Assembly: GCA_015178975.1 (NCBI GenBank)
Contig: WHVD01000021.1
Location: 310,001-374,000 of the forward strand
Reading direction: 5' to 3'
Length of the DNA stretch: 64,000 bases
Origin: Hysterangium stoloniferum
Lineage: Eukaryota > Basidiomycota > Agaricomycetes > Hysterangiales > Hysterangiaceae
Position 1 is the stretch's first letter. Every line of letters begins with the position of its first letter. Positions 1 through 60,711 of this stretch are shown in pieces. Position numbers and translations under genes: made by a program. Below the pieces are notes generated by a model. That model saw nothing but the letters and a program-made list of their open reading frames with translations. It made no database searches and was not told the origin of the DNA.

Positions 1-734
1 TGTTAAGAACTGAAAACTGACTAATGTCAGTGGGCCAACGGGGACTGATCAGAAGGACTTGGCTTCAGCTTATGTGCTGCACCCTCGCAGTTATCTGTTG
101 GGTGTCCAAAAATTTCGGGCGGGAGAAGACTAGTCCTAATGAATACCTCTTGGCAGAACTACTGAGCAGAAATAAAGGATAAGTCGAGTGTCAGGCCAAG
201 GAGTTGGGAACCAAGAGCACGCGTGAAGGCAGATAGTGGAGTACTTAGTATGAGACTACTAGAGGCGTAAGAGTGTATTCTGAGTCGATATTCTGATTGC
301 CTAGTAACTACAACTACAGCGGGTTCATATACAAGTATCAGGAATCTAAAAACACTAACTAGGAGAAGAGCGGAAAGCGCTATTGACAAATAAGCTTGAC
401 TAGGAACAGGAAGGTTATGATTAGTTCGGAGGCCGTACATTAACCGAGAGCAGAATTACGAGAAAAGGAAAAAGTCCGAGAGTTACAAGTATTTTTAGAC
501 ATGTGTGAAACATAGAGTAGAACGGATCATCATAATGAAAAGGGGTGTATCAGAGTTTAACCAGATAGTATGAGTATATTTTGATGGGGGTGTAAACGGA
601 GTTTGATCACTGCGAAGGCATATGTCAGCATCGGGGAACCGACAGCTTCCAATGTGAGGACTTGAGCGATGACTTGAATTGTTGATAGGTGGCGATAACC
701 TCGGGAACCGTCGGGTTGCAACACAGTCGTAACA
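1..734 (-). mobile_element. Solo LTR, family LTR-I (copy 1)
   Basis: Reverse complement of a TGTTACGAC...TTCTTAACA long terminal repeat. On the plus strand it runs from TGTTAAGAAC at base 1 to GTCGTAACA at 734. Three relatives lie at 5216, 20296 and 22137. The left target-site duplication is outside the window; the right flank begins GCAGA. No coding region is attached, so I read it as a solo LTR or the edge of an element lying to the left. Short ORFs in it are chance. Confidence 0.85.
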
Positions 735-5215: not shown

Positions 5216-6099
5216 TGTTACGACCGTGTCGTAACCCATGTCGCAACCCGATGGTCTCCGAGAATACTACAGTCTATCGATGTTCCAAGTTATTGATCAA
5301 GTCATCATTTCGGCAACCTTCAGAATACCGACACTGACGTATACCTTCACGGCGATCAAACCTCGTTTACGCCCCTGTCAAAATATACTCTACCATCTGG
5401 TTATGCTTTGATACGTCCCCTTTCATTATGATGATCTGTTTTACTCTATGTTTCACATATGCCCATATATACCTGTAGCCCGTGGACTATTCCCTTTTCT
5501 CGTAATTCCGCTCTCAGCTAAATCTCGGCTTCCGATCTTATCGTAACTTTCCGGTTCCTAGTCAAGCTTATTTGTCAATGCCGTTTTCCGCTCTTCCCTT
5601 AGTTAGTAGTTTCTAGACGCCGATAACCCATATATAAACCCGCTGTAATGTAACTACTAGACAATCAGAATATCGACTTAGATACCCTCTAATTTCTGAC
5701 TCCATTATCTATTCACGACCACCACATTCCGACTCCATCCGATTTACGATTCAACCTACATTTACGACTTCAACCTCTAATCTCCGACTCTCAGTCTCCG
5801 ACTGTCTCAGTCTCCGACTGTCTCAGTCTCCGACTGTCTCAGTCTCCAACTCTCTCAGTCTCTGACTCTCTCAGCCTCCGACTCTTGGTCTCCGACCCCT
5901 CAACCCAACCCTCAACTTATCCTTCGGTTTCCGATCGGTAGTTTACCGAGAGGTTTACTTGACAGGACTAGTTTTCGCCCGCCCGAAATTTAAGGACACC
6001 TGACGGTAACTTGTGAGGGCGCAGCACATAAGCTGAAGCCAAGTCCTTCCGTTCGGTCCCTGTCGGCCAGCTGACATCTGTCAGTTTCTGCTCTTAACA
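5216..6099 (+). mobile_element. Solo LTR, family LTR-I (copy 2), TSD TTATG
   Basis: Starts TGTTACGACCGTGTCG and ends CTCTTAACA. It is flanked by perfect 5-bp target duplications TTATG at 5211-5215 and 6100-6104, so it is a bona fide solo LTR. At 884 bp it is longer than its relatives (723-735 bp), mainly because of a degenerate tandem of a roughly 16-bp GTCTCAGTCTCCGACT unit at about 5785-5900. It interrupts the kinase relic. The conserved module ATAAGCTGAAGCCAAGTCC lies near its 3' end. Confidence 0.95.
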
Positions 6100-17056: not shown

Positions 17057-17176
17057 ATGCCTGGGACTCTCGGTCGCCCCTGTGCTGCTTCTTCATATGC
17101 CAACCCTTCCGATGTTCCTCTCTCTGCCAATTCCCATTCACCCGGCTTAACTGTCGAGGTCGCTGCCGTTGTCACC
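17057..17176 (+). pseudogene. First-exon relic of unrecognised gene (copy A)
   Basis: An open stretch beginning ATG-Pro-Gly-Thr ('MPGTLGRPCAASSYANPSD') is nearly identical to 33823-33945. Here the minisatellite begins directly after 'VEVAAVVT', whereas copy B continues for another 300 nt of open frame. I do not recognise the family. It is a truncated copy. Confidence 0.6.
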
Positions 17177-18380
17177 GTGCGTGTACCGTTTCCTTCTCTC
17201 TTCATCCTCCTCTGATTGGCCTCCTCTCTCTTTCCTCCAGTCTGTGCGTGTACCGTTTCCTTCTCTCTTCATCCTCCTCTGATCGGCCTCCTCTCTCATT
17301 CCTCCAGGATGTGCGTGTACCGTTTCCTTCTCTCTTTGTCCTCCTCTGATCGGCCTCCTCTCTCTTTCCTCCAGCGAGTGCGTGTACCGTTTCCTTCTCT
17401 CTTCGTCCTCCTCTGATCGGCCTCCTCTCTCATTCCTCCAGGATGTGCGTGTACTGTTTCCTTCTCTTCGTCCTCCTCTGATCGGCCTCCTCTCTCTTTC
17501 CTCCAGTTTGTGCGTGTACCGTTTCCTTCTCTCTTCGTCCTCCTCTGATCGGCCTCCTCTCTCTTTCCTCCAGCTCGTGCGTGTACCGTTTCCTTCTCTC
17601 TTCGTCCTCCTCTGATCGGCCTCCTCTCTCATTCCTCCAGGATGTGCGTGTACCGTTTCCTTCTCTCTTCGTCCTCCTCTGATCGGCCTCCTCTCTCTTT
17701 CCTCCAGGACGTGTGTACCGCTTCCTTCTCTTCATCTCCTCTGATCGGCCTCCTCTCTCTTTCCTCCAGTTTGTGCGTGTACCGTTTCCTTCTCTCTTCG
17801 TACTCTTCTGATCAGCCTCCTCCCCCTTTCCTCCAGCTCGTGCGTGTACCGTTTCCTTCTCTCTTCGTCCTCCTCTGATGGGCCTCCTCTCTCTTTCCTC
17901 CAGGACGTGCGTGTACCGTTTCCTTCTCTTCGACCTCCTCTGATCGGCCTCCTCTCTCTTTCCTCCAGCGAGTGCGTGTACCGTTTCCTTCTCTTCGACC
18001 TCCTCTGATCGGCCTCCTCTCTCTTTCCTCCAGCGAGTGCGTGTACCGTTTCCTTCTCTCTTCGTCCTCCTCTGATCGGCCTCCTCTCTCATTCCTCCAG
18101 GATGTGCGTGTACCGTTTCCTTCTCTCTTCGTCCTCCTCTGATCGTCCTCCTCTCTCTTTCCTCCAGGACGTGTGTACCACTTCCTTCTCTTCATCTCCT
18201 CTGATCGGCCTCCTCTCTCTTTTCTCCAGCCTGTGCGTGTACCGTTTCCTTCTCTCTTCGTTCCTCCTCTGATCGGCCTCCTCTCTCTTTCCTCCAGGAG
18301 GTGCGTGTAACCTGTCTTTCTCTCTTCTCCCTCTACTTAGCCTCCTCTCTCTTTCCTCCAGTTGGTGCGCATGTCCTTTC
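17177..18380 (+). repeat. 67-bp minisatellite array, copy A (about 18 units)
   Basis: Pyrimidine-rich units of about 67 bp beginning GTGCGTGTACCG, then CCTCCTCTGATCGGCCTCC, and ending TTTCCTCCAG plus three variable bases. Each unit holds a polypyrimidine tract plus AG, followed within 0-4 nt by GTGCGT, i.e. a 3' splice site next to a 5' splice-site-like motif. The minus strand is open in all frames, which produces long Arg/Glu-rich ORFs that I do not consider genes. The same array is expanded at 34441. Confidence 0.97.
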
Positions 18381-25150: not shown

Positions 25151-27349
25151 CACTTCGACTAAGCACCATAGTAAACCCAAAACGGGTACTCGGCGCATTG
25201 ACGTGTACGAGCGCCAATCCGTTTCCCAATCCACCAGGGTCAATATCCAGACCCGAAGCACCTGCTTTCGAATAGCACGGCTGGTCAGTCATATCCAGAG
25301 TATAAATGAATGTATGAGCGATAGATTGCTACATAGCACCAATGCAAACACCAACCCCGACATCGAGACCAGCACCCGCGCTGACACCAGTGCAGTCGAA
25401 GCCGTTTCTTCAGCCCTCCCAACTAGCGGAAGTTCATCCATCCGCATGAGGATAACAACACCCATGCACTGAGCGTCCTCCCTCGTATACGGGATAACAG
25501 TCATAACCATGACCACACATGCGAACGCGTCGAAGTCGACCTCGGACAAAAACCAGCAGGAGGAATGAGGAAATGATTTAGATGAAGACTGGTTGCAGTT
25601 GGTGCGATTCCGTTGTTTCTGTTTGTGTGGGTGTTTGGGCCGAGGGAGAGGAGGGAAAGGATGTTGGATGTTGTATACAATAGACCAGGTGTGTATGAAC
25701 ACGTCACCTTCGGTATTCAAATGATGGCGAGTTCATGTCACCAACAGGGCATCATCTAGATGACGATCTGACTAGACCACCACGACCTGATACCAAACTA
25801 CCAGCCAAACCTATATCCAACCCTGATGTTAAACTGCAGACCAACCCTCATCCAACACCCGATACCAGACCCCTCTAAAACCACCCATTGCACGACCCCA
25901 CACTTCCCAGATACGCCCCTCGTCCAATGGGCACTCATTACTGACGCAGGCAGCCAAGGGTCCCGTATCCATATCTACAAGTTCCACAACTGCCGTGCCC
26001 ACCCAGAGTACGAATACGAAGTCTTCAAAATGACCAATCCGGGGAGCAGCCTTTCGAAGTTTGCTGTAATCCTGAGGAGGCTGCGCGAAGCCTGGATGTC
26101 TTGATGGATGAGGCGATGAGGACTGTGCCTGAGAGATGAAAAAGTGCACGCCTGTGGCTGTCAAGGCGACGGCGGAGCTGAGGATGCTTGGTGCGAGCAA
26201 GAGTACTGAGGTTTTAGCGGCTGTGAAGATACGGCTGGAGTCAGCGTATCCGTTTCCGCTTTTGAAGGGGGACGGGGTTGTTATTATGGATGGGAAGGAT
26301 GAAGGTGTCGTGTTCCGTTTTTTATTGATTGTCATCCCCGCCATGTCTAAAGTTTCCATTTACAGGCATCTATGCATGGATAACGGCGAACTACCTCCTT
26401 GACACAATTCGCTCGAGTGCCTTAAAACAGGACTCGACGACCTATGCCGTCCTCGAACTCGGCGGCGCATCCACCCAGATCGTCTTCGAGCCCACCTTCA
26501 CCGAGCCAGGTGCCAAATTTGAAGAAGGCGACCATAAGTACCGCCTGGAGTTCAGCGGCCGCTCGTACGTTTTGTACCAGCACTCGTACCTTGGATATGG
26601 GCTCATGCAGACGAGGAAGAGCGTGCATCGACTGTTGGACTTTTTGCATTCGCGCGAGAAGGAGGCGGAATCTGAACATGTGGCGAATCCGTGTTTGGCA
26701 CAGGGCACTGAGCGGCGCGTGGAAATTGATGACGGGGTAGGGCCGCCGCGGAATATGACATTTGTCGGCGCGGATGTGGGGAGTTTCGAGGCGTGCAATA
26801 GGGTTATGCAGCTTGTTATGGCGAAGCATGAGTATGTCCATTTATATCTGCCCTTTTCCCCTCTGTGCCTTTGCCCCTACCTCTGCGTTTGCCTTCATCG
26901 CTGCCTTCTTTGACCATCTTCACCGCAGAATCTGCCACGTGAAACCCTGTTCCTTCAACGGTGTCTACCAACCCTCCCTTCTCTCAACATTCTCCGGACC
27001 CATCCTCCTCCTCTCCTACTTCTACGACCGGATCTCGCCCCTCCTCCCGCTCTCCACACAAACTCTCTCCATAGACACAATAACAGCCCTCGCACGCCAG
27101 ACTTGCGGAGGCCAGGGATCCTGGCTCGAGCACTGGGGCTCGAACGTGGAAGTCATGGAGGAACTCGAAGGAAGACCGGAATATTGTCTCGATTTGACGT
27201 TCATGCATGCGCTTTTGACGGTGGGGTATGAATTTGGGAGGGAGAGGGAGGTGCGGATTGCGAAGCAGGTGTAGGGCACGGAGATGGGGTGGTGTTTGGG
27301 GGCTACGATTGTGATGCTGGATATGACGAAGTTGGTCTGTGAGGTGTAA
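25151..27349 (+). pseudogene. GDA1/CD39 phosphatase pseudogene 2
   Basis: Second copy of the nucleoside diphosphatase with both introns at the same places. The start codon is lost (CACTTCGACT where copy 1 has ATGGCTTCGACT). There are single-base deletions at about 25705, 26063 and 26130, and a GAG to TAG nonsense change near 27272. The first three frameshifts are shared with pseudogene 3. The exon 2 and exon 3 frames are otherwise long and open, and the apyrase 'LELGGASTQIVFEP' region is intact, so decay is recent. Downstream to 27960 matches the 3' flank of copy 1. Confidence 0.92.
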
Positions 27350-34440: not shown

Positions 34441-37400
34441 CGCTCTTTCCTCTAGCGAGTGCGTGTACCCTGTCTTTTTCTCTTCGTCCTCCTCTGATCG
34501 TCCTCTCTCTTTCCTCCAGTTCGTGCGTGTTACGTTTCCTTCTCTCTTCGTCCTCCGCTGATCGTCCTCCTCTCTCTTTCCTCCAGCTCGTGCGTGTACC
34601 GTTTCCTTCTCTCTTCACCCTCCTCTGAGCGGCCTCTTCTCTCTTTTCTCCAGGAGGTGAGTGTACGCTTTCTTTCGCTCTTCGTCCTCCTCTGATCGAC
34701 CTCCTCTCTTTCCTCCAGCGAGTGCGTGTACCGTTTCCTTCTCTCTTCGTCCTCCTCTGATCGGCCTCTTCTCTCTTTCCTCCAGCGAGTGCGTGTACCA
34801 TTTCCTTCTCTCTTCATCCTCCACTGATCGTCCTCCTCTCTCTTTCCTCCAGTCGGTGCGTGTACCGTTTCCTTCTTTCTTCGTCCTCCTCTGATCGTCT
34901 TCCTCTCTCTTTCCTCCAGCGAGTGCGTATACCGTTTCCTTCTCTCTTCGTCCTCCTCTGATCGGCCTCCTCTCTTTCCTCCAGCGAGTGCGTGTACCAT
35001 TTCCTTCTCTCTTCGTCTTCCACTGATCGGCCTCCTCTCTTTCCTCCAGGAGGTGCGTGTACCGTTTCCTTCTCTCTTCGTCCTTCTCTGATCGGCCTCC
35101 TCCCTCTTTCCTCCAGGACGTGCGTGTACCATTTCCTTCTCTCTTCGTCTTCCTCTGATCGTCATCCTCTCTCTTTCCTCCAGCGAGTGCGTGTACCGTT
35201 TCCTTCTCTCTACGTCCTCTGATCGTCCTCCTCTCTCTTTCCTCCAGTTCGTGCGTGTGCCGTTTCCTTCTCTCGTCGTCCTCCTCTGATCGTCCTCCTC
35301 TCTCTTTCCTCCAGCGAGTGCGTGTACCGTTTCCTTCTCTCTTCGTCCTCCTCTGATCGGCCTCCTCTGATCGGCCTCCTCTCACTTTCCTCTAGCCGGT
35401 GCGTGTACCGTTTCCTTCTCTCTTCGTCCTCCTCTGATCGGCCTCCTCTCTTTCCTCCAGCGAGTGCGTGTGCCATTTCCTTCTCTCTTCGTCCTCCTCT
35501 AATCGTCCTCCTCTCTCTTTCCTCCAGCCGGTGCGTGTACCCTTTCCTTCCCTGTTCGTCCTGCTCTGATCGGCCTCCTCTCTCTTTGCTCCAGTTCGTG
35601 CGTGTACCGTTTCATTCTCTCTTCGCCCTCCTCTGATCGTCCTCCTCTCTCTGTCCTCCAGGTCGTGCGTGTACCGTTTACTTCCCTCTTCGTCATCCTC
35701 TGATCCGCCTCTGCTCTCTTTCCTCCAGGACGTGCGTGTACCTTGTCCTTCTCTCTTCGTCCTCGTCTGATCGTCCTCCTCTCTCTTTCCTCCAGGCCGT
35801 GCGTGTACCGTTTCCTTCTCTGTTCGTACTGCCCTGATCGTCCTGCCCTCTCTTTCCTCCAGGAGGTGCGTGTACCGTTTCCTTGTCTCTTCGTCCTCTT
35901 CTCATCGGCCTCCTCTCTCTTTCCTCCAGGAGGTGCGTGTACCCTTCTTTCCCTCTTCGTCCTCCTCTGATCGGCCTCCTCCCTCTTTCCTCCAGGACGT
36001 GCGTGTACCGTTTCCTTCTCTCTTCGTCCTCCTCTGATCGGCCCCTCTCTCTTTCCTCCAGCTCGTGCGTGTACCGTTTCCTTCCCTCTTCTTCCTCCTC
36101 TGATCGGCCTCCTCTGTCTTTCCTCCAGCGAGTGCGTGTACCGTTTCATTCTCTCTTCGTCCTCATCTGATCGGCCTCTGCCTTTCCTCCAGTTCGTGCG
36201 TGTACTGCGTTTCATTCTCTCTTCGTCTTCCTCTTATCGGCCTTCTCTCTCTTTCCTCTAGCTTGTGCGTGTACCGTTTCCTTCCCTCTTCGCCCTCCTC
36301 TCATCGGCCTCTTGTCTCTTTTCTCCAGGAGGTGCGTGTACCCATTCTTTCCCTCTTCGTCCGCCTCTGATCGGCCTCCTCCCTCTTTCCTCCAGGACGT
36401 GCGTGTAACGTTTCCTTCTCTCTTCGTCCTCCTCTGATCGTCCTCGTCTCTCTTTCCTCCAGCCGGTGCGTGTATCGCTTCCTTCTCTCTTCGTCCTCCT
36501 CTGATCGGCCTCGTCTCTCTTTCCTCCAGCCGGTGCGTGTATCGCTTCCTTCTCTCTTCGTCCTCCTCTGATCGGCCTCCTCTCTCTGTCCTCCAGGGGG
36601 TGCGTGTCCCATTTCTTTCCCTGTTCGTCCTCCTCTGATCAGCCTCTTCTCTCTTTCCTGCAGCTCGTGCGTGTACCGTTTCCTTCCCTCTTCGTTCTCC
36701 TGATCGGCCTCTTCTCTCTTTCCTCCAGGAGGTGCGTGTACCCTTCCTTTCCCTCTTCGTCCTCCTCTGAGCGACCTCCTCCCTCTTTCCTCCAGGACGT
36801 GCGTGTACCGTTTACTTCTCTCTTCGTCCTCCTCTGATCGGCCTCCTCTCTTTCCTCCAGCGAGTGCGTGTACCGTTCCCTTCTCTCTTCGTCCTCCTCT
36901 GATCGGCCTCCTCTCTCTTTCCTCCAGTCCGTGCGTGTACCCTTTCTTTCCCTCTTCGTCCTCCTCTGATCAGCCTCCTCTATCTTTCCTCCAGCGAGTG
37001 CGTGTACCAATTCCTTCCCTCTTCGTCCTCCTCTGATCGGCCTCTTCTCTCTTTTCTTCAGGAGGTGCGTGTACCCATTCTTTCCCTCTTCGTCCTCCTC
37101 TGATCGACCTCCTCCCTGTTTCCTCCAGGACGTGCGTGTACCGTGTCCTTCTCTCTTCGTCCACCTCTGATCGTCCACCTCGCTCTTTCCTCCAGCGAGT
37201 GCGTGTACCCTTTCTTTCCCTCTTCGTCCTCCTCTGATCGGCCTCCTCCCTCTTTCCTCCAGGACGTGCGTGTACCGTGTCCTTCTCTCTTCGTCCTCCT
37301 CTGATCGTCCTCCTCTCTCTTTCCTCCAGCGAGTGCGTGTACCCTTTCTTTCCCTCTTTGTCCTCCTCTGATGGGCCTCCTCCCTCTTTCCTCCAGGACG

Positions 37401-40400
37401 TCCGTGTACCGTGTCCTTCTCTCTTTGTCCTCATCTGATCGTCCTCTCTCTTTCCTCCAGCGAGTGCGTGTACCGTTTCCTTCTCTCTTCGTCCTGCACT
37501 GATTGGCCTCCTCTCTTTCCTCCAGCGAGTGCGTGTACTGTTTGCTTTTCTCTATGTCCTCCTCTGATCGGCCTCCTCTCTCTTTCCTCCAGTTCGTGCG
37601 TGTACCGATTCCTTCTCTCTTTGTCCTCCTGTGATCGCCATCCTCTCTCTTTCCTCCAGCTCGTGCGTGTACCGTTTCCTTCTCTCTTCGTCCTCCTCTG
37701 ACCATCCTCCTCTCTCTGTCCTCCAGCTTGTGCGTGTACCGTTTCCTTCTCTCTTCGTCTTCCTCTGATCGGCCTCCTCTCTCTTTCCTCCAGGAGGTGC
37801 GTGTACCGTTTCCTTCTCTCTTCGCCTCCTCTGATCATCCTCTCTCTTTCCTCCAGGAGGTGCGTGTACCGTTTACTTCTCTCTTCGTCCTCCACTGATC
37901 GACCTCATCTCTCTTTCCTCCAGCTCGTGCGTGTACCGTTTCCTTCTCTCTTCGTCCTCCTCTGATGTCCTCCTCTCTCTTTCCTCCAGCTTGTGCGTGT
38001 ACCATTTCCTTCTCTCTTCGTCCTGCTTTGATCGTCCTCCTCTCTCTTTCCTCCAGATCGTGCGTGTACTGTTTCCTTCTCTCTTCGTCCTCTCTGATCG
38101 TCCTCCTCTCTCTTTCCTCCAGGAGGTGCGTGTACCGTTTCTTTCCCTCTTCGTCCAACTCTGATCGGCGTCCTCTCTCTTTCCTCCAGCTCGTACGTGT
38201 ACCGTTTCCTTCTCTCTTTGTCCTCCTCTGATCGGCCTCCTCTCTGTCCTCCAGCTCGTGCGTGTACCGTTTCCTTCTCTCTTCGTCCTCCTCTGATCGT
38301 CCTCCACTCTCTTTCCTCCAGCCGGTGCGTGTACTGTTTACCTTCTCTCTTCGTCCTCCTCTGATCGTCGTCCTCTCTCTTTCCTCCAGTTCGTGCGTGT
38401 ACCGTTTCCTTCTCTCTTCGTCCTCCTCTGATCGGCTTCCCCCCTCTTTCCTCCAGGAAGTGCGTGTACCCTTTCTTTCCCTCTTCGTCCTCCTCTGATC
38501 GGTCTCCTCTCTCTTTCCTCCAGCAAGTGCGTGTACCGTTTCCTTCTCTCTTCGTCCTCCTCTGATCGGCCTCTTCTCTCTTTTCTCCAGGAGGTGCGTG
38601 CACCCCTTCTTTCCCTCTTCGTCCTTCTTTGATCGTCCTCTCTCTTTGCTCCAGCCGGTGCGTGTACTGTTTCCTTCTCTCTTCGTCCTCCTCTGATCGG
38701 CCTCCTCCCTCTTTCCTCCAGCGAGTGCGTGTACCGTTTCCTTCTCTCTTCGTCCTCCTCTGATCGGCCTCTTCTCTCTTTCCTCCAGCGAGTGCGTGTA
38801 CCATTTCCTTCTCTCTTCGTCCTCCACTGATCGGCCTCCTCTCTCTTTCCTCCAGTCGGTGCGTGTACCATTTCCTTCTCTCTTCGTCCTCCACTGATCG
38901 GCCTCCTCTCTCTTTCCTCCAGTCGGTGCGTGTACCGTTTTCTTCTCTCTTCGTCCTCCTCTGATCGTCCTCCTCTGATCGTCCTCCTCTGATCGTCCTC
39001 CTCTGATCGTCCTCCTCTATCTTTCCTCCAGTTCGTGCGTGTACCATTTCCTTCTCTCTTCATCCTCTTCTGATCGACCTTCTCTCTCTTTCCTCCAGAT
39101 CGTGCGTGTACCGTTTCCTTCTCTCTTCGTCCTCCTCTCATCGTCCTCCTCTGTCTTTCCTCCAGGTTGTGCGTGCACGGTTTCCTTCTCTCTTCATCCT
39201 CCTCTGATCGGCCTCCTCTCTCTTTCCTCCAGATCGTGCGTGTACCGTTTCCTTCTCTCTTCATCCTCCTCTGATCGGCCTCCTCCCTCCTTCCTCCAGC
39301 TCGTGCGTGTCCCGTTTCCTTCTCTCTTCGTCCTCCTCTGATCGTCCTCCTCTCTCTCTCCAGGACGTGCGTGTACCGTTTCCTTCTGTCTTTGTCCTCC
39401 TCTGATCGTCCTCCTCTCTCTTTCCTCCAGCGAGTGCGTGTGCCATTTCCTTCTCTCTTCGTCCTCCTCTGATCTGCCTCCTCTCTTTCCTCCAGCCGGT
39501 GTGTGTACCGATTCCTTCTCTCTTCGTCCTCCTCTGATCGTCCTCCTCTCTCCTTCCTCCAGCCCGTGCGTGTATCGTTTCCTCCTCTCTTCATCCTCCT
39601 CTGATCGTCCTTCTCTCTCTTTCCTACAGGAGGTGCGTGTACCGTTTCCTTCTCTCTTCGTCCTCCACTGATCGTCCTCCTCTCTCTGTCCTCCAGCTCG
39701 TGCGTGTACCGTTTCCTTCTCTGTTCGTCCTCCTCTCATCGTCCTCCTCTCTCTTTCCTCCAGGAGGTGCGTGCACCCTTTCTTTCCCTCTTCGTCGTCC
39801 TCTGATCGGTCTCCTCTCTCTTTCCTCCAGGAGGTGCGTGTACCGTTTCCTTCTCTGTTCGTCCTGCCCTGATCGTCCTGCTCTCTCTTTCCTCCAGCGA
39901 GTGCGTGTACCGTTTCCTTCTCTCTTTGTCCTCCTCTGATCGGCCTCTTCTCTCTTTTCTTCAGGCGGTGCGTGTACCCTTTCTTTCCCTCTTCGTCCTC
40001 CTCTGATCGTCCTCCTCCCTCTTTCCTCCAGGACGTGCGTGTACCGTTTCCTTCTCTCTTCGTTCTCCTCTGATCGGCCTCCTCTCTCTTTCCTCCAGCT
40101 CGTGCGTGTACCATTTCCTTCTCTCTTCGTCCTCCTCTGATTGGCTTCCTGCCTCTTTCCTCCAGGACGTGCGTCTGCCGTTTCCCACTCTCTTCGTCCT
40201 CCTCTGATCGGCCTACTCTCTCTTTCCTCCAGTTCGTGCGTGTACCGATTCCTTCTCTCTTCATCCTCTTCTCATCGTTCTCCTCTCTCTTTCCTCCAGC
40301 TCGTGGGTGTACCGTTTCCTTCTCTCTTCGTCCTCCTCTGATCGGCCTCCTCTCTCTTTCCTCCAGCTCGTGCGTACCATTTCCTTCTCTTTTCGTCCCC

Positions 40401-41120
40401 CTCTGATCGTCCTCCTCTCTCTTTCCTCCAGGAGGTGCGTGTACCGTTTCCTTCTCTCTTCGTCCTCCTCTGATCGGCCTCCTCTGTCTTTCCTCCAGCT
40501 CGTGCGTGTACTGCTTCTTTCTTTCTTCGTCCTCCTCCTCTGATCGGCCTCCTCTCTCTTTCCTCCAGTCCGTGCGTGTACCCTTTCTTTCCCTCTTCGT
40601 CCTCTTCTGATCGGCCTCTTCTCTCTTTCCTCCAGTCGGTGCGTGTACCGTTTCCTTCTCTCTTCGTCCTGCTCTGATTGGCCTCCTCTTTCCTCCAGCT
40701 CGTGCGTGTACCGTTTCCTTCTCTCTTCGTCCTCCTCTGATCGTCCTCCTCTCTCTTTCCTCCAGGAGGTGCGTGTACAGTTTCCTTCTCTCTTCGTCCT
40801 CCTCTGATCGTCCTCCTCTCTCTTTCCTCCAGGAGGTGCGTGTACCGTTTCCTTCTCTCTTCGTCCTCCTCCTCTGATCGGCCTCTTCTCTCTTTCCTCC
40901 AGTCCGTGCGTGTACCCTTTCTTTCCCTCTTCGTCCTCTTCTGATCGGCCTCCTCTCTTCCCTCCAGGAGGTGTGTGTACCGTTTCCTTCTCTCTTCGTC
41001 CTCTTATGATCGCCCTCCTCTCTCTCTCCTCCAGGAGGTGCGTGTACTCTGTCTTTCTCTCTTCTTCCTCCTCTAATCAGCCTCCTCTCTCTTTCCTCCA
41101 GTTGGTGCGCGTATCCTTTG
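34441..41120 (+). repeat. 67-bp minisatellite array, copy B (about 100 units)
   Basis: About 6.7 kb of head-to-tail units of about 67 bp, same family as 17177-18380. Units vary in the three bases after CCAG (CGA, GAG, CTC, GAC, TTC, CCG and others) and in GATCGGCC versus GATCGTCC. Small 3-17-bp indels are common, and a 14-bp sub-repeat (CTCCTCTGATCGTC) is multiplied at about 38955-39020. Left and right edges match copy A. Every unit juxtaposes a pyrimidine tract-AG with GTGCGT. Long minus-strand ORFs (up to 649 residues at 39194-41143) are Arg/Glu/Lys repeats. Confidence 0.97.
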
Positions 41121-42131
41121 CTTTTCCATCCACCATAACTCAATCTGATCTTTTCATAGCCACTCCATGATATATTGTTGATGGGTTTGCTTCCCGCCTA
41201 TAACAAATACAACACTGCCAATATAAGGTACTGTTTTTTCTCAGGATTGGAGGCCATTCACTGACAGCATTCCCGAAACTCGTCACCATGATGTGTAACA
41301 TGCAGCTTGAACTGAGGGTCGTTTCCTTCCATTTTTATTTTGCGTTTACATCCGCTGTGACTCAGTTTAATCAGCTTATCTCATGGACGTTCCCCTTTCA
41401 AATGCTGCTTTGGAGGCTTTTAAAGCTGCACTTCAACAAGCGGACTATTGGAGACATCAGCATTTTGTATATTTATTTGTATATTTAGGATGAGAACAGT
41501 ATTGGCTAGAACAGGCATGTGGATCGGAGATGGAAGACTCACAAAGGTTCAGTGAGCGAATTGAGCATGCGGATACAACTACAAAGATCCCTCGTAAGTA
41601 CTCTCATCTTAAAAGCACAGCCAATAGCAGTGCGAATCGGAGAACCTCCTAGATAACAGATAAGCCCCACCGAACGGGCGCGCGCGCCGGTGTAAATCTG
41701 GCGAAGTATGCGTACTGCTTTACATAAAGAAATGTCCGCTTAAGGGTGTCTCTCCACACGAGTTGATGATCAGTAACCAGTGAGGTCTTTTGGACATGAT
41801 ATTAAAACGTACGTGACACTAGTCCTCAGCTGCCAGAGACACTTAGAAGTGGAAATACCTCGGGATTGTATGTCTCACATGCCCCTTTATTAATGTCTGT
41901 GTCTGAAAAAGTGATTTAAGGACTCCCCGAGTCTTCTTCTTGTTTGAACCAATTTCTCCACGTTGCATTTTTGGCCCCTCGGGCGGACCTATCCTGGATG
42001 TGCTACTGTGTGCTTCTTATGATGCGGAGCCTAGTTGCGTGGATGACTCGGACATAGAGCCCAGTTACATCGATGACGCAGCGTGGCCGGGGACGTCATT
42101 GCGCTTCAACTAGTAAGCATCGATGTTGTCC
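41121..42131. other. Right flank of minisatellite and duplication segment, copy B
   Basis: Matches 18381-19036, then 20230-21400 of copy A minus the solo LTRs and about 640 bp. A GC-only palindromic stretch GGGCGCGCGCGCCGG lies at about 41677-41691, at the point where copy A has extra sequence. Otherwise unrecognised. Confidence 0.5.
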
Positions 42132-46839: not shown

Positions 46840-47642
46840 TGTTACGACTGGACAATCCCGCTGGACTCCGGGCACTAACTCGTACGCACCCACACCCTAC
46901 ACGCACCAATTGTCTGTTTATAGGATTTCCCACCCGGACTCCGTTCATCAGACTTGTTACATTTGATCTCATTACAGTCACCGGACTTCCCCCGGACTCC
47001 GTCTCTGTCTATGTCTGTCTTCATCCCACGCATCAGTCACTGGACCCCGCTCAGAATCCCATCACTGCTCTAACTGAGCCCCGTTCCCGTTTTAGTCAAA
47101 TGACCTGTCACAATTAGGACTCCACCCCCACTCTGTTTCCCGTTATGGGTTATGATTTGTCACATTTCGGACTCCGCTCCATTCCGTCCCATTCCTAACA
47201 CCAAACTTGGTGTTTACTATTCCCGTTTTATGTTTTGCTCATTTCGTTTCATTATTACTGGATTCGGTATGACATTCACTCCATGGTCTATTTAAACTGG
47301 CAGATTGTTGTACATACAATCCAGTCAGAAAATTAGCTTAGATTCCCCCCAGTAATCTAATACATTTTCCGCTCTAAACCCTTACTTGTATCACACCACA
47401 CACTAGTCGGAGCCCACAGGCTCCAGCGCATCTATCCCTTTCACCTATCTCGACTCTTGACCCACAACCTCTGACTTACGACCTACGACCCACGAACCCT
47501 GCCCAGACTCCTTGGGATTCCCGTCCGCCTGTCTGAAATTGAGACACGTTCTAGCAAGGGTGCAGCCTATAAGCTGAAGCCAAGTCCTACCAGATATCCC
47601 GCGGGTTTCTCCGGAAACCTGCCCTGTGTGTGTATCCTAACA
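46840..47642 (+). mobile_element. Solo LTR, family LTR-II, TSD TATTG, in copia
   Basis: TGTTACGACTGGACAATCCC...GTATCCTAACA, 803 bp, flanked by TATTG at 46835-46839 and 47643-47647. Inserted in the protease region of the copia element. Confidence 0.95.
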
Positions 47643-50692: not shown

Positions 50693-51510
50693 TGTTAGGA
50701 TACACACACAGGCCGGGTTTCTGGAGAAACCCGCAGGATATCCGGTAGGACTTGGCTTCAGCTTATAGGCTGCGCCCTCGCTAGATCGTGTTGTCCAATT
50801 TCAAACAGGCAGACGGGAATCCCGGGGAGTCTGGGCAGGGTTCGTGAGTCGTAAGTCGTGGGTCGTAGGTCGTGAGTCGTGAGTCGAGTTGGTTGAGAGA
50901 GATAGAATGTGCCAGAGCCCGTGGGCTCTGACTAGTGCGAGCGGTCTGATGAGAGTAGGGTTTTAGAGAGGAAAATGCTATTAGATTACTGGGGGAATCT
51001 AAGCTAATTTTCTGACTGGATTGTATGTACAACATCTGCCAGTTTATATAGACCATGGAGTGAATGAACATACTAATCCAGTAATAATGAAAACGAAACT
51101 AACAAAACATAAACGGGAATAGTAAACACCAAATTTGGTGTTAGGAACGGGACGGAACAGAGCGGAGTCCAAATCGTGACAAAGCATAACCCATAACGGG
51201 AAACGGAGCGGGAGTGGAGTCCTAATCATGACAGGTCATTTGACTAAAATGGGAATGGGGCTCGATTAGAGCGGTGACAGGATTCTGAGCGGGATCCAGT
51301 GACTGATGCGTGGGACAAAGATGGACATAGACAGAGACGGAGTCCGGGGGAAGTCCGGTGACTGATATGTATCGTACTGAGTCGAACGTAACGAGTCTTG
51401 ATGTAACGGAGTCCGGGCGGGAAATCCTATAAACAGACGATTGGTGCTTGTAGCGTGTGGGGGCATACGGGTTAGTGCCCGGAGTCCGGTGGGATTGTCC
51501 AGTCGTAACA
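50693..51510 (-). mobile_element. Solo LTR, family LTR-II, in copia
   Basis: On the plus strand TGTTAGGATACACACACAGG...AGTCGTAACA, 818 bp. Flanks CCTGG (50688-50692) and CCTGA (51511-51515) agree at 4 of 5 bases, so the target duplication is slightly decayed. It lies after the RNase H region. Confidence 0.9.
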
Positions 51511-52544: not shown

Positions 52545-54735
52545 ATAGCTTCGACTAAGCACCAGAAATTATGTAGTAAACCCAAAACGGGTACTCGGCG
52601 CATTGAGGTGTACGAGCGCCAATCCGTTTCTTGAGTCCACCAGGGTTATTATCCAGACCCTAAGCACCTGCTTTCGAATAGCACGGCTGGTCAGTCATAT
52701 CCAGACTTGTATAAATGAATGTATGAGCGATAGATTGCTACATAGCACCAATGCAATCACCAACCCCGATATCGATACCGGCACCGGCGCTGACACCAGT
52801 GCAGTCGAAGCCGTTTCTTCAGCCCTCCCAACTAGCGGAAGTTCATCCATCCGCATGAGGAATAACAACACCCATGCAATGAGCATCCTCCTCGTATAGG
52901 GAATCACAGTCATAACCATAACCACACATACGGACGCGTCGGAGTCGACGTGGGACAACAACCAGCAGGAGGAATGAGGAAACGATTTAGATGAAGACTG
53001 GTTGCAGTTGGTGCCATTCCGTTGTTTCTGTTTGTGTGGGTGTTTTGGCCGAGGGAGAGGAGGGAGAGGATGTTGGACGTTGTATACAATAGACCAGGTG
53101 TGTATGAACACATCACCTTCGGTATTATGATGGCGAGTTCATGTCACCAACAGGGCATCATCTAGATGACGATCTGACTAGACCACCTGACCTGATACCA
53201 AACTACCAGCCAAACCTATATCCAACCCTGATGCTGAACTGCACACCAACCCTACCCAACACCCGATACCAAACCGACCCAGACCCCTTCAAAACCACTA
53301 ATTGCACGACCCCACACTTCCCAGATACGCCCCTCGTCCAATGGGCATTCATGATTGACGCAGGCCCATATCCATATCTACAAGTTCCACAACTGCCGTG
53401 CCCACCCAGAGTACGAATACGCAGTCTTCAAAATGGCCAATCCGGGGAGCAGCCTTTCGAAGTTTGCTGTAATCCTGAGGAGGCTGCGCGAAGCCTGGAT
53501 GTCTTGATGGATGAGGCGATGAGGACTGTGCCTGAGAGATGAAAAAGTGCACGCCTGTGGCTGTCAAGGCGATGGCGGAGCTGAGGATGCTTGGTGCGAG
53601 CAAGAGTGCTGAGGTTTTAGTGGCTGTGAAGATACGGCTGGAGTCAGCGTATCCGTTTCCGCTTTTGAAGGGGGACGGGGTTGTTATTATGGATGGGAAG
53701 GATGAAGGTGTCGTGTTCCGTTTTTTATTGATTGTCATCCCCGCCATGTCTAAAGTTTCCATTTACAGGCATCTATGCATGGATACCGGCGAACTACCTC
53801 CTTGACACAATTCGCTCGAGTGCCTCAAAAAAGGACTCGACGACCTATGCCGTCCTCGAACTCGGCGGCGCATCCACCCAGATCGTCTTCGAGCCCACCT
53901 TCATCGAGCCAGGTGCCAAATTTGAAGAAGGCGACCATAAGGACCGCCAGGAGTTCAGCGGCCGCTCGTACGTTTTGTACCAGCACTCGTACCTCGGATA
54001 TGGGCTTATGCAGGCGAGGAAGAGTGTGCATCGACTGTTGGACTTTTTGCATTCGCGCGAGAAGGAGGCGGAATCTGAACATGTGGCGAATCTGTGTTTG
54101 GCACGGGGCACTGAGGGGCGCGTGGAAATTGATGACGGGTAGGGCCGCCGCGGAATGTGACATTTGTCGGCGCGGATGTGGAGTTTCGAGGCGTGCAATA
54201 GGGTTATGCAGCTTGTCATGGCGAAGCATGAGTATGTCCATTTATATCTGCCTTTTTCCACACTTTGCCTTTGCCCCTACCTCTGCGTTTGCCTTCATCG
54301 CTGCCTTCCTTGATCATCTTCCACATGAAACCCTGTTCCTTCAACGGTGTCTACCCACCCTCCCTTCTCTCAACATTCCCCTTCGGACCCATCCTCCTCC
54401 TACTTCTACGACCGGATCTCGCCCCTCCTCCCGCCCTCCAAACAAACTCTCTCCATCGATACAATCACAGCCCTCGCACGCCAGACGTGCGCAGGCCAGG
54501 CATCCTGGCTCGAGCACTGGGGCTCGAACGTGGACGTGATGGAGGAACTCGAAGGAAGACCGGAATATTGTCGCGATTTGACGTTCATGCATGCGCTTTT
54601 GACGGTGGGGTATCAGTTTGGGGGGAGAGGGAGGTGCGGATTGCGAAGCAGGAGGTGGAGGGCACGGAGATGGGGTGGTGTTTGGGGGCTACGATTGTGA
54701 TGCTGGATAGGACGAAGTTGGTCTGTGAGGTGTAA
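52545..54735 (+). pseudogene. GDA1/CD39 phosphatase pseudogene 3
   Basis: Third copy. The start codon is changed to ATA (GTAAATAGCTTCG). It shares with pseudogene 2 the one-base deletions near 53121, 53470 and 53537, and adds its own: a deletion removing part of the first apyrase motif (about 53362-53372), frameshifts near 54140 and 54180, and losses in the intron 2/exon 3 region. 'LELGGASTQIVFEP' remains. The 3' flank to about 55280 matches copies 1 and 2. Confidence 0.92.
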
Positions 54736-55768: not shown

Positions 55769-56580
55769 GATACACACACAGGCCGGGTTTCCGGAGAAAC
55801 CCACGGGATATCCGGTAGGACTTGGCTTCAGCTTATAGGCTGCGCCCTCGCTAGATCGTGTTGTCCAATTTCAGACAGGCGGACGGGAATCCCGGGGAGC
55901 CCGGGCGGGGTTCGTGAGTCGTAAGTCGTAGGTCGTAGGTTGTAGGTCGTGAGTTGAGTTGATTGAGAGAGATAGAAAGCGCCGGAGCCCATGGGCTCCG
56001 ACTAGCGTAAGCAGTCTGATGAGAGTAAGGTTTAGAGAGGAAAACGCTATTAGATTACTGGGGGAATCTAAGCTAATTTTCTGACTGGATTGTATGTACA
56101 ACATCTGCCAGTTTATAAAGACCATGGAGTGAATGAACATACTAATCTGGTAATAATGAAAACCAAACTAACAAAACATAAACGGGAATAGTAAACACCA
56201 AATTTGGTGTTAGGAACGGAACGGAACGGAGCAGAGTCCGAATCGTGACAAAGCATAACCCATAACGGGAAATGGAGCGGGAGCGGAGTCCTAATCGTGA
56301 CAGGTCATTTGACTAAAATGGGAACGTGGCTCGGTTAGAGTGGTGACGGGATTCTGAGCGGGATCCGGTGACTGATGCGTGGGACGAAGATGGATATAGA
56401 CAGAGACGGAGTCCGGGGAAAGTCCGGTGACTGACATGTGTCGTACTGAGGTCGAACGTAACGAGTCTTGACGTAACGGAGTCCGGGCGGGAAATCCTAT
56501 AAACAGACGATTGGTACTTGTAGCGCGTGGGGGTGTACGAGTTAGTGCCCGGAGTCTGGCGGGATTGTCCGGTCATTACA
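55769..56580 (-). mobile_element. 3' LTR of the chromovirus, family LTR-II
   Basis: Same family as the LTRs at 30799, 31147, 46840 and 50693. The outer end has lost about 7 bases (it starts at GATACACACAC). The inner end reads ...GGTCATTACA, i.e. TGTAATGACC on the element strand. A polypurine tract lies directly inside it, so this is the 3' LTR of the minus-oriented element. Confidence 0.88.
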
Positions 56581-56598
56581 GTATCCTCCCTTTATGCC
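56581..56598 (-). other. Polypurine tract of the chromovirus
   Basis: On the minus strand the sequence just inside the LTR reads CATAAAGGGAGGATAC, a plus-strand priming purine tract directly abutting the LTR. This fixes the LTR as the 3' copy and the element orientation as minus. Confidence 0.7.
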
Positions 56599-56730
56599 GA
56601 AGTCCCAAAGAGGCTCTAGACCTAGATAAGGTTCTTGTCGGCTACACGCATGTGTCAAAGGTCATGTCGGTTACACGTATGTGTCAACGAGTCATGTGAT
56701 CTGGAAGGTAAGGTTCAAACACGATGAGCC

Positions 56731-56739
56731 TATATAAAA
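56731..56739 (+). promoter_or_regulatory. TATA box of the antisense gene
   Basis: TATATAAAA 52-60 nt upstream of the ATG at 56791, followed by a pyrimidine-rich leader. It reads away from the 3' LTR and supports independent transcription of the antisense gene. Confidence 0.65.
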
Positions 56740-56790
56740 ATTGAAAAAAATAGAAATTTCTTCTTCTTTATTACCCCCATCTTCGCCAAA

Positions 56791-57793
56791 ATGGGACCAA
56801 AGCCCACGCCACACAGACCAATGCCAACCGCCGGGCCCTCCACGGGCAGTCCATACCGGGCGCCGCTGACCGCTGCCCAAATTTTGGCGCAGCGAGACGA
56901 GCAGTGTCGACAGCGTGAGGAGGCGGAGCGGGAAGCCCGGGAGGTCGAGGAGACCCTGAATAGGGAATACCAGGCAGCCGTGGCTGCGGAGGAAGAGGCT
57001 GCGAGGCAGAAACAGAGAGAGGAGGAGGAGGCTGCGTGGGTGGCCGCAGAGAAGGCCAGGGTAGCGGCGGAAAACGCCCAGGTGGCCGCGGAGAGAGCCG
57101 CAGTGGTGGCAGGTAAGGTAAGTCCAAAACACTTCAAGTCGTCGTTTCTCCTTTACTGACTTGTTCTTTTCAGCGCAAGGCGACAGAGATGGAGTCCGAG
57201 TCCGAGGGGGAGCCAGAGAGCCCCCAAAAAGTAAGCCTCGTGTCCGTGGGACTACCGCGGGAAACTGACCATATCAACAGAAGGCAAGGAAGGCGGCGCC
57301 AGTCCGTCTTCCAACGCGGAACGAGCCACGGTGTTCCGGTTGTAGTGACCGGAACACGGAGTGTAACAGGAAGTCCGGCCGGGGGCCGGGCTGCTATCAA
57401 TGTGCGCACCTCAAGGCGAGGTGCTCGCTTGTGCATGAGCAAGCCACGGGGTCCGGGGCGCGGGACATCAGCGGGACAGACGGGTTTTCCGGGTTGGACG
57501 AGGTCCTCGGGCGGATCGCTGAGGGCATCGAGGCCCAAAACGTGTTGCTCCGGAAGAGCAACAAAGTCCAAGTGATGGTGGGGAAGGAGCTGTCCAGACT
57601 CCGCGAGGAGTTTTGGAAGTTCCTGGCAGAGTATGGTGGCTACATTTATAAGGAGCCGCAAGTCGGAAGTTCCGAGGATGCCGGGTCGGATGAAGAGGGG
57701 GTTGACGCAGAGGTCGCAGAGCTTCCTGGGGAGATAGCTGAGGTGGGAAAACAGGAGGTGGGGAAAAAGGACAGTCCCATAAATGTAGACTGA
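56791..57793 (+). CDS. Coiled-coil protein with Zn2Cys6-type motif, antisense in chromovirus
   Basis: Three exons join in phase: 56791-57117, 57174-57230, 57281-57793. Introns are 56 and 50 nt, with GTAAGT/CAG and GTAAGC/CAG ends and CTGAC branch sites. The 298-aa product has a Pro/Gly-rich start (1-30), a long Glu/Arg/Ala-rich coiled coil (about 35-108), and six cysteines at 146, 149, 156, 166, 169 and 176. The spacing CX2CX6CX9CX2CX6C fits a fungal Zn(II)2Cys6 DNA-binding cluster. A second helical segment (about 215-245) and an acidic tail follow. It is transcribed against the element, between the pol/chromodomain end and the 3' LTR, with its own TATA box. No stop breaks it, unlike most of the surroundings. 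Function is not known; DNA binding is inferred from the cysteine spacing only. Alternatives are a captured host gene or a zinc knuckle with no DNA role. Confidence 0.8.
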
Positions 57794-58001
57794 AAAGTAA
57801 TATAAAATAAAAAGTAATTGAACATAAAAGAAAAGCGTGAAAAAAATCATAAGAATAAAAAGTCAAAGTCAAAGTCCGCAGGATATCCGCTTTTGAGGAC
57901 TTGACAAGACAAGTCAGAACCTGTAAAAGCAAAGAGAGACATAGGGCGACAGGGAATAGTGAAAATGAGTCCAAAGGTAACACGGGGTCCGCAGATTGCA
58001 G
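57794..58001. other. Convergent 3' ends
   Basis: A/T-rich stretch between the antisense gene (plus) and the chromovirus pol (minus). AATAAAA runs near 57808 and 57854 could terminate the plus transcript. Confidence 0.45.
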
Positions 58002-59995
58002 TCAGAGAGACGATAATGGTCCAGGTTTGAGTGGGTAAGCTGTATGAAAGTCAGTAACAATTTCCGTGGCATTACCGAGTTCCGTGGCCAAAATCCATGA
58101 AGTTTCTTCATCGGTGCCCTCGTAACCCGCCCACTTGACCAAGTAAAGCAGTTTACAAGTGCGTCGACACTTGTCAATTTTTGAATCTAAAATCTGTGAG
58201 ATTTCAAACTCGGGTTCTCTGTCAATGATGACAGGAGGAGGCGGAGATTGCACGTGATCTGGGATAGTGTTAGCAGTACAAGGTTCTAGCATAGAAACAT
58301 GAAATACCGGGTATCCGCGCGCATGCTATCCGGAAGCCGTAGGGTCCAAGAAACTGAACCTACTTGTACAATTATTTCAAAGGGACCTAAATATTTTTCA
58401 GCAAGCTTTTTAGATGGACGGGTAGTCCTAAAGAATTGAGCTTTGACATAAACACGGTCACCTATCTTGAAGTTTGGTGGCAGGATCTGGTGTTTGTCCG
58501 CTGAATGTTGGTATTGCTCTTGGGCGGACAATATTGCAGTCTGGAGTTCCTCGTGGAGCTCGTGGAGGTCCGTGGTGAACTCTTGAGTGCGAGCAGAGGC
58601 AAGATTTTGTTCTGGATGTACTGTAATATTTGGATTATATCCTTTATTTGCAAAGAACGGGGAGACGCCAGTAGTGGCCGAGGGTGCATTGTTGTAAGCA
58701 AACTCTGCAAGTGGTAACAAGGATTTCCAATTGTCCTGTTGGTAATTGCAATATACGCGGAGATATTGTTCCAATGTCTGGTTGACGTGTTCGGTTTGTC
58801 CATCGCCTTCCAGGTGATGTCCGGATGTGAAATGTAAGGTCATGTCCAAGGATTTTCCGAGGGATCTAAAGAAGTGAGACACGAACTCTGATCCTCTATC
58901 GGAAGTCACGTGGGACGGAACTCCGTGCTTGGAAAATACGTGGATAATAAAAAGTTCCGCTAACTGCACGGATGTGATTGTGTCATAAGTAGGGATGAAT
59001 ATACCTTGTTTTGAGAATCTGTCAACAACGACTAGAATGGCGGAAAAGCCTTCGGAATCCAGTAGGTGTTCAATGAAATCCATAGAGATAGAATTCCACG
59101 GGTGTTCCGGTACCGGGAGTTGTTTCAAAAGGCCGTATGGCTTGTGTCGCTGAGATTTCGAGTGGGGACAAGTAGTGCAAGATTTACAATAGTGCTTAAC
59201 GAATCCACGGAGTCCGGGCCAAGTATATTCTCTTCTTATTAATGATAGAGTTTTGTTGTACCCGAAATGTCCTGAGAGTGGATGATCGTGTTTGTATTGA
59301 AGGATCCTGGGGCGGAGGCCGTCGGAGTCCGGTACATAGATTCTATCGTCAAGTCTAATGAAACCATGCTGGTCGAGAGACCACCGAGGTTGATCGGGGT
59401 CCATGGGATTGTCAAGGTGAGCTTTAGTGATAGGGTCTAGCGGAATTGCCGATAGAATATCTTGATGTAACTTCTCGATATCCATAATGATAATTCCACA
59501 GACAATGGGATTGACAAGGAAAGTTGCGCGGACCGATGCGGTAAGCTGTTGATTCGTGAAAATAGGTTTCAGGTTGTGCGGATTTACCGTTGCATAGTCG
59601 TTGCTCCCCTCTTTAGGATAGACGTCCCATCGTCTAGTTAAAGCGTCGGGTTTGCCGCCGAGACGGCCAGGTCGAAAACGGATAATCATGTTGAAGGCAG
59701 ATAGATATTCAGACCAGCGGGCCTGCCGGCAGGTCAAAAGTTTTGTAGTAGAAAAGTATTCCAGGTTTTTGTAATCTGTTACAATGTCAATAGGAGCTCC
59801 TGAACCTTCCAAATAGTGTCGCCACGCTTTGAAAGCTGAAAAGATTGCCAGAAGTTCTTTATCATGAACGTCGTAGTTGAGCTCTGCTCCGGTGAAAGTC
59901 CAGGACAGAAAAGCCACGGGGTGGACTTCTCCATTGAAGTTTTCAATAATTACCCATGGATTGGACACATGCGTCATGGTGATGGCTGAGTGAGT
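58002..59995 (-). pseudogene. 5'-truncated Ty3/gypsy chromovirus pol (RNase H, integrase, chromodomain)
   Basis: The minus-strand pol frame (59995 down to 58286) starts inside RNase H ('NYDVHDKELLAIFSAFKAWR', 'VTDYKNLEYF'). It continues through the HHCC zinc region ('HPLSGHFGYNKTLSLIRR', 'CKSCTTCPHSK') and an integrase core with 'SMDFIEHL', 'VTSDRGSEFVS' and 'DGQTEHVNQTLEQ' carrying D, D and E. It ends in a GPY/F-like 'EKYLGPFEIIVQVGSVSW'. A frameshift near 58310 separates it from a chromodomain (58002-58292) with 'FEISQILDSKI', 'LYLVKWAGYEGTDEETSW'. Gag, protease and RT are missing, and the 5' LTR is absent. The element breaks at about 59995 into copy C sequence. Pol has no internal stop until the frameshift, so decay is mild. 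Confidence 0.93.
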
Positions 59996-60711
59996 TGACG
60001 AAGACCATATGATTGGAAGAAAACATATAGTAAGCATAGAGAATAAATCAGTTCAGAATAACGTACCATAACACAAGATATCAAAGTAAGATAACTAGAG
60101 ACAGATGTAACGTTATATTATGTGACTTGTTGGTGGGAGTTGGAACACCATTGCGACAATAAAAGGAAGAAAGACTTCTCAATGTTATTGAGAGAGGTCT
60201 AAGCCAGGGAGTACTGCCGTCGCTTGAAAACATGTCTGTTAATTAACAGAAGAACAAAGAGCCAAAGGGAAAATACAAGCCTAATCCCGTATAAGCAGGG
60301 CTGATGCTTGAAGGTCAGGTTCCTGAGACTGAAAAAGGACCCGGGACTACAACGAGCCATAAAGTATCCCGGATTGCTTCCAGGTCGAGTGTGGCAGAAG
60401 GACTTTTGCATCTCCAGCGGGACACATGGTTGCGTAGGCAAGATCACACAAAACAACAACGTTAATATATTTTATTTGAGTTTTCCAAGTTTATTTCATA
60501 TATCAGTGCAAGAACTTTACATGGCCTCTTTACTAAATACTTCAGAAAACACGAGCTTTGCCCCTTTGATTATTTAATCTTGATCTGCAGTCCGGCGAAT
60601 TTAATTGTAGCGGCAAGCGCTGAAATTGATCGGCTATGTGTTTGTACGGAGGAAATAAGGCCACCCTTCTGGTACATCCAGATCGCGTCGTGCACATACG
60701 CATAAAGGTAA

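Follow-up and report, generated by a model that had tools for sequence, protein, structure and literature searches.

The original paper on brtn, a gene of the Boty retrotransposon, is reportedly that of Zhao et al. 2011. In Boty-like retrotransposons of Botrytis cinerea, brtn is an antisense gene (PMC7264820, PMC8365987, PMC4227169), and the gag-pol of these elements has been described with a chromodomain (PMC4227169). In the parts of these accounts available to us, neither a zinc cluster, introns nor target motifs are described for brtn, and it is compared here by description only. Antisense additional open reading frames (aORF-3R) also occur in the plant elements Grande, RIRE2, Retand and PvRetro13 (PMC7264820, PMC11963269), and although antisense genes at the 3′ end of such retroelements were described years ago, they still lack an assigned function (PMC7264820). 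As far as the available parts of the two plant accounts go, aORF-3Rs resemble the gene analyzed here in position, orientation, conservation in most copies and a suspected nuclear or DNA-binding role, and that of Grande likewise has its own promoter; they differ in belonging to other protein families (TRP28 in Retand), which were unmatched in our Pfam scans, and mention is made of neither intron nor zinc (PMC7264820, PMC11963269).

Two further systems are close in design. VANC, the anti-silencing protein of the Arabidopsis VANDAL elements, removes methylation; it binds a short motif that is particularly frequent in its own family (PMC5735166). As described in the available part of that work, it shares with our locus an element-encoded protein paired with a short motif that is unusually frequent within the family, and the motif types differ between related VANDAL families, as they do here. 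However, VANDALs are DNA transposons, and VANC motifs pile up in tandem repeats, whereas those found here are mostly scattered in coding sequence. A short motif at family-specific density, as in the VANC type, was found in our elements; no sequence relation to VANC emerged from Pfam profile scans run to E 1. HBZ of HTLV-1 is an antisense, spliced nuclear regulator encoded at the 3′ end of its element, and our gene resembles it in these features. By the available description, HBZ differs in being a bZIP protein of a retrovirus with its promoter in the LTR, and as far as tested it shows no homology to our gene product. For LTR retrotransposons of fungi, no antisense gene that is spliced and of zinc-cluster type was seen in the open-licence literature searched. 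The original prediction knew of no spliced Zn2Cys6-type gene in fungal chromoviruses, and this agrees with the searches made; an antisense gene as such is already in print as Boty brtn. What appears to be new here is a putative zinc-cluster, intron-bearing antisense gene together with family-wide, target-like CGG pairs.

The window, the whole 64,000-nucleotide stretch of Hysterangium stoloniferum DNA analyzed, was compared with the genome (111 Mb, 554 contigs searched). As shown in Table 1, the 3′ part of a Ty3/gypsy chromovirus occupies 55769–60052 on the minus strand, LTR first and then pol. A chromodomain ends the integrase, and the integrase and RNase H profiles exceed their cut-offs, as in chromoviruses. 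The pol ends early near 60052 and its reading frame is disrupted near 58300, which makes the window copy a remnant of an element; the outer edge of its LTR is worn. Accordingly, the minus-strand Ty3/gypsy pol with chromodomain predicted beside the gene was recovered, but not as a whole pol. LTR pairs in 14 measured loci were 91–99% identical. CpG transitions in old copies (L033–L046 against L021) amounted to 27% versus 5.5% at other G or C, an excess expected if the host methylates the element; this approximately five-fold faster CpG decay suggests that DNA methylation or a similar process acts on the elements. Two more LTRs of the same family lie in the window, one at 46840–47636 and another, a solo LTR at about 50694–51510, nested within a Copia element whose RT and RNase H lie to the left on the plus strand.

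Table 1. Features of the antisense gene and its host element (positions in the window)
Feature	Position	Strand	Basis or remark
CGG-N5-CCG pairs in LTR, starts 55804, 55884, 55893	55804..55903	.	sequence and enrichment
3′ LTR of minus-strand chromovirus, 812 nt	55769..56580	-	repeat family D1-D3; adjoins gene in 20/20 fetched copies
CGG-N3-CCG pairs in LTR, starts 56359, 56407, 56477	56359..56485	.	sequence and enrichment
Polypurine tract, AAAGGGAGG on minus strand, CCTCCCTTT on plus strand	56585..56593	-	sequence
Upstream box, copy 1, GTCGGCTACACGCATGTGTCAA	56637..56658	+	direct repeat; little variation over 22 copies
Upstream box, copy 2, GTCGGTTACACGTATGTGTCAA	56666..56687	+	direct repeat; GTCGGTTAC and TGTGTCA recur before sister gene
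GTCATGTGA box	56691..56699	+	common to sister gene promoter
TATA box, TATATAA	56731..56737	+	sequence, copy comparison
Exon 1: charged helical, coiled-coil-like region	56791..57117	+	copy comparison; helix judged by eye
Intron 1, phase 0, GTAAGT..TTTCAG	57118..57173	+	GT..AG in 22/22 copies, length 48-56
Exon 2: acidic linker between basic clusters KRK and KKARK	57174..57230	+	57 nt in 22/22 copies
Intron 2, phase 0, GTAAGC..CAACAG	57231..57280	+	GT..CAACAG in 22/22 copies, length 47-52
Exon 3: zinc-cluster-like region, second coiled-coil-like helix, acidic tail, TGA	57281..57793	+	copy comparison
CX2CX6CX9CX2CX6C	57332..57424	+	sole match to six-cysteine pattern in six frames of window
Element chromodomain	58044..58208	-	PF00385, 30.4 bits vs cut-off 25.1
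Truncated pol remnant: RNase H, integrase H2C2 and core, SH3-like	58286..60052	-	profiles
CGG-N3-CCG, rest of window copy	starts 56857, 57380, 57447, 57983, 58331, 59208, 59313, 59323	.	sequence
CGG-N5-CCG, rest of window copy	starts 56929, 57481, 57664, 59099, 59441, 59579, 59647, 59718	.	sequence

The 3′ LTR is separated from the chromodomain end by an intact plus-strand gene of three exons, which encodes 298 aa (56791–57793; ATG at 56791, stop TGA at 57791–57793). The intact three-exon structure with two canonical introns, as originally predicted, was confirmed by the GT..AG borders of all 22 copies compared, 18 of which read without interruption. Exon 1 measured 327 nt except in two copies (306 and 321 nt, one each). 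The exon 3 slice was not divisible by three in 11 of the 22 alignment rows; 9 of these still read through to the stop, reflecting the alignment edge (three checked), and the other 2 are broken copies. A by-eye count found exon 3 free of internal stops in 112 of the best 150 of 1356 genome candidates. With splice sites constant while intron lengths vary, the copy comparison indicates that the gene model is beyond chance, and the transcript is presumably spliced in vivo. An opposite-strand reading was considered as well: in the spliced CDS, one of the minus-strand frames holds even fewer stops (5 versus 9 in the 22 copies). Open frames alone are therefore not decisive; what decides is the codon-position pattern, the third position being the most variable, together with the behavior of the introns.

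The dN/dS between copies, proposed earlier as a check, averaged 0.19 (mean dN 0.055, mean dS 0.291), figures that are descriptive because the 231 pairs from 22 copies share ancestry and are nonindependent. The ratio between two copy groups was 0.175, near the 0.140 of the integrase part of pol. These values indicate that the gene is under purifying selection. Between the same groups, the introns diverged by 19 and 28% but the 210 nt upstream by only 4%. Variability over 22 copies fell to the region minimum of 0.006 at 56671–56700, which is nearly invariant, and the TATA box assigned to the gene in the original prediction was found in place. By this comparison, the gene is preceded by its own conserved region.

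The order LTR, gene, chromodomain was kept in all 20 fetched loci. These loci were selected by the gene itself, and a chromodomain-first search is the fairer test. In that search, the gene adjoined 39 of the best 40 of 1560 candidates, and the 40th chromodomain-region match begins 387 nt from a contig end. The best chromodomain-region matches bear out the expectation that most elements carry the gene at the same place, and chance insertion of an independent host gene was rejected on the same counts (20/20 gene-picked loci, 39/40 best chromodomain-region matches). Judged by its position across loci, the gene is an element-borne module.

Zn2Cys6 domains (Zn_clus, PF00172) are spaced CX2CX6CX5-12CX2CX6-8C, and both the window protein and the protein of a sister family (see below) have this spacing. 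The six cysteines were retained in 29 of 32 readable copies, 14 old ones among them. The window protein, however, scored 10.4 bits against a Zn_clus cut-off of 21. Weak Zn_clus matches were found in 6 of 15 members (best E 0.11), and the profile search gave none for sister exon 3. Pfam scans at E up to 1 returned only weak Zn_clus, AvrD, DUF5539 and WSN matches. A PDB search found no zinc-cluster structure match, just weak talin coiled-coil ones (E 0.23 and 0.71), and in a search of IMG/VR for relatives, 8 stretches fitted a pattern and none was confirmed. Hence the originally proposed Zn2Cys6-type cluster stands by its CX2CX6CX9CX2CX6C spacing but not by family profile, and the HMM check suggested for the cysteine region turned out negative, as no Pfam cut-off was reached. 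Membership in the Zn2Cys6 class is probable from the cysteine spacing, not from a profile score, and the protein would be expected to bind zinc. Zn2Cys6 proteins contact DNA through basic residues between cysteines 2 and 3. This loop reads SDRNTE in the window copy, which is without the usual basic residues, and TARNRA and TKRGRT in the sister family. By eye, KRK and KKARK form a possible bipartite nuclear signal.

The sister chromovirus, with a pol protein 79% identical to that of the main family, has an antisense homologue of the gene in the corresponding position (tblastn E 5.5e-7). Among the matches listed, the gene lay 3′ of pol on the other strand in 7 of 8 with a 1302-aa pol frame. The sister zinc pattern is CX2CX6CX10CX2CX6C, and exon 3 is 34% identical to that of the main family over 138 residues. 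Read from sequence, the sister splice junctions coincide with those of the main family (between GK and RKA and between SPK and R); intron 2 has the donor GTATTT, and an automatic model search requiring a stricter donor found no sister gene model. Upstream, the boxes GTCGGTTAC, TGTGTCA and GTCATGTGA and a TATA box follow in the same order. Homology, place, junctions and promoter boxes together indicate that the gene is older than the split of the two families.

Sister copies L047/L051 and L055 share 97.5% nucleotide identity in pol but just 65% of residues in exon 3, and synonymous sites are saturated between these antisense alleles. Such near-identical bodies with old gene alleles point to cassette exchange. 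In the main family (window gene, L009–L028), exon 1 falls into two types that diverge by 25%, whereas exon 3 differs by 9–13%, and some main-family copies are therefore mosaic. CpG hypermutability was rejected as the cause of the faster gene divergence, as fourfold non-CpG sites differ between groups by 0.255 in the gene versus 0.065 in pol; recombination fits better.

Zn2Cys6 proteins typically recognize CGG pairs as dimers, according to the part available of one account (PMC5559640). In the reference copy, CGGA was the most over-represented tetramer (134 versus 65 by dinucleotide shuffle). When gag and pol were shuffled synonymously with protein and codon use kept, CGG-N3-CCG (11 versus 2.0 expected), CGG-N5-CCG (15 versus 2.5) and CCRYGG (25 versus 5.0) stood out, and neighboring spacings were near expectation. 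Under a stricter shuffle of one copy's gag-pol, in which protein and dinucleotides were kept and thirty patterns were tried, the expectations rose to 4.5 for inverted N3, 6.0 for N5 and 11.0 for CCRYGG, and each observed count was reached in 0 of 400 shuffles. Of the 11 remaining inverted spacings in the range N0 to N12, 10 were reached in at least 139 of 400 shuffles and N7 in 29; the CGGA excess shrank to 103 versus 91. The N3 and N5 peaks occur in all three codon frames. A single copy served both to detect and to test the main-family peaks, so a fair replication has to come from the sister family. Its pol contained 11 CGG-N3-CCG versus 2.9 expected, reached in 0 of 300 shuffles, and the shuffle test found no enrichment of N5 and CCRYGG there. 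Only 2 N3 sites, of 9 and 11, stand in a common aligned column between the families. Direct pairs spaced by N4 are likewise elevated in the two families.

Per 10 kb, N3 and N5 pairs numbered 27.6 and 25.4 in 164.8 kb of family DNA (a masked set, mostly copies of one family) versus 0.27 and 0.09 across the other 111.8 kb fetched. N4 pairs (8.6 versus 0.27) and N7 pairs are also commoner in family DNA because it is CGG-rich. Synonymous non-CpG G or C sites were variable in 0 of 26 cases inside motifs versus 38 of 193 outside (p 0.010), whereas CpG synonymous sites did not differ (23/54 versus 59/124). Compared with matched windows, whole-motif conservation was 0.60 versus 0.65 for N3 and 0.57 versus 0.66 for N5 in one direction, and 0.86 versus 0.81 and 0.88 versus 0.85 in the other; whole motifs are thus not clearly better conserved, and the evidence for selective constraint on the paired sites is modest. 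Small RNA hairpins are disfavored as the cause of the inverted pairs because N4 loops are not enriched. The enrichment lends indirect support to the originally proposed idea that the protein is a regulator of the element.

Family III (L031 and L032; window 1–730 and 5218–6098) is a decayed relative rich in N3 and N5 pairs, some of them within degenerate repeats. Neither the antisense zinc gene nor a zinc motif was found in L031 and L032, so that a second replicate with the gene is not supported by family III. Relatives may drive this family in trans; alternatively, its sites may be independent of the gene. The family III LTRs hold a 16-bp tandem array, GTCGGAGACTGAGAGA; degenerate CGGA/TCCG repeats make up a stretch of the interior. 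Three control families, two gypsy (28% pol identity) and one chromovirus (39%), contained zero CGG pairs, as expected from their CGG-poor composition. The zinc pattern was not found in the 3.3–3.4 kb beyond their pol, although a helicase-like frame in the flank of one makes its 3′ end uncertain.

Taken as a whole, we give roughly an even chance to the reading that the gene encodes a nuclear zinc-cluster regulator recognizing its own chromovirus family, with an anti-silencing or activating effect. Its own promoter beside the 3′ LTR would drive transcription against gag-pol, and the transcript would be spliced. The genomic RNA being the opposite strand, the gene's introns would stay unspliced in it and survive retrotransposition, because the RNA that is copied would be that strand. 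Laboratory antisense-intron reporters follow the same logic. The protein would enter the nucleus and dimerize through its helices, and the predicted zinc-cluster dimer would bind CGG-N3-CCG and CGG-N5-CCG, which its own family holds at high density in LTR, gag, pol and the gene itself. Coating its own family in this way could mark the elements and control their expression or chromatin in trans. The likeliest direction would be anti-silencing or activation, as with VANC, self-repression being the main variant; both DNA binding and the direction of the effect are proposed from sequence features. Against this reading stand the loop lacking the usual basic residues, the profile scores below every cut-off and the site-rich family III copies in which the gene was not found; moreover, two or three site geometries for one protein would need explaining. 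An extended form is more tentative, and we think it rather less likely to be right than wrong: a self-recognition lineage in which an antisense spliced zinc-cluster protein and target pairs, placed by synonymous choice in LTRs and coding sequence, co-evolve and lift silencing from their own family only, with cassettes exchanged as in an arms race.

Self-repression or copy-number control, in which the protein binds LTR and body sites and holds the element inactive much as HTLV-1 HBZ lowers LTR activity, seems improbable to us. Antisense position and spliced design are as in HBZ, which turns off activation according to the available part of its description (PMC3736048). The LTR does hold sites, and a promoter distinct from the 5′ LTR would suit a latency factor; yet a self-repressor would need mainly LTR sites, whereas most lie in gag-pol, and the high copy number speaks against tight self-control. 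We likewise doubt that a recruited host zinc-cluster factor binds the CGG pairs while the antisense protein serves another purpose such as RNA export, particle assembly or integration. Such a factor could come from the 42 PF00172 matches in the genome and would accommodate both family III and the window protein's loop, but the family-specific spacing preference (the main family favors N3, N5 and CCRYGG, the sister only N3) suits element-specific partners better. That the enrichment is functionless, a product of mutational history, codon-pair habits or old tandem duplications with the gene as an ancient captured passenger, is very unlikely: the repeat-borne family III sites, the whole-motif conservation, the shrunken CGGA excess and the composition-matched zeros of the controls would suit it, but the spacing-specific peaks outlast the amino-acid and dinucleotide control in all three codon frames, the N3 sites are mostly nonhomologous between the two families, and the gene is under purifying selection.

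In two related families, a candidate target code accompanies the antisense gene, which makes the old question of function directly testable. If the self-encoded regulator reading is true, coding sequence would have been shaped by synonymous choice for protein binding, and the way in which an antisense gene keeps its introns inside a retroelement would be explained.

Elsewhere in the window, CGGA lies far under expectation at 36000–42000 (12 versus 64). Minus-strand repeat-coded frames with REGNGTRTRWRKERGG-like units occur at 34500–41200 and 17100–18300 and are probably minisatellite. Three apyrase-like gene fragments, at 7825–8845 on the minus strand and at 25832–27271 and 53349–54735 on the plus strand, have in common the reading LELGGASTQ, which we take to be an apyrase-type motif, and represent related copies within one window.
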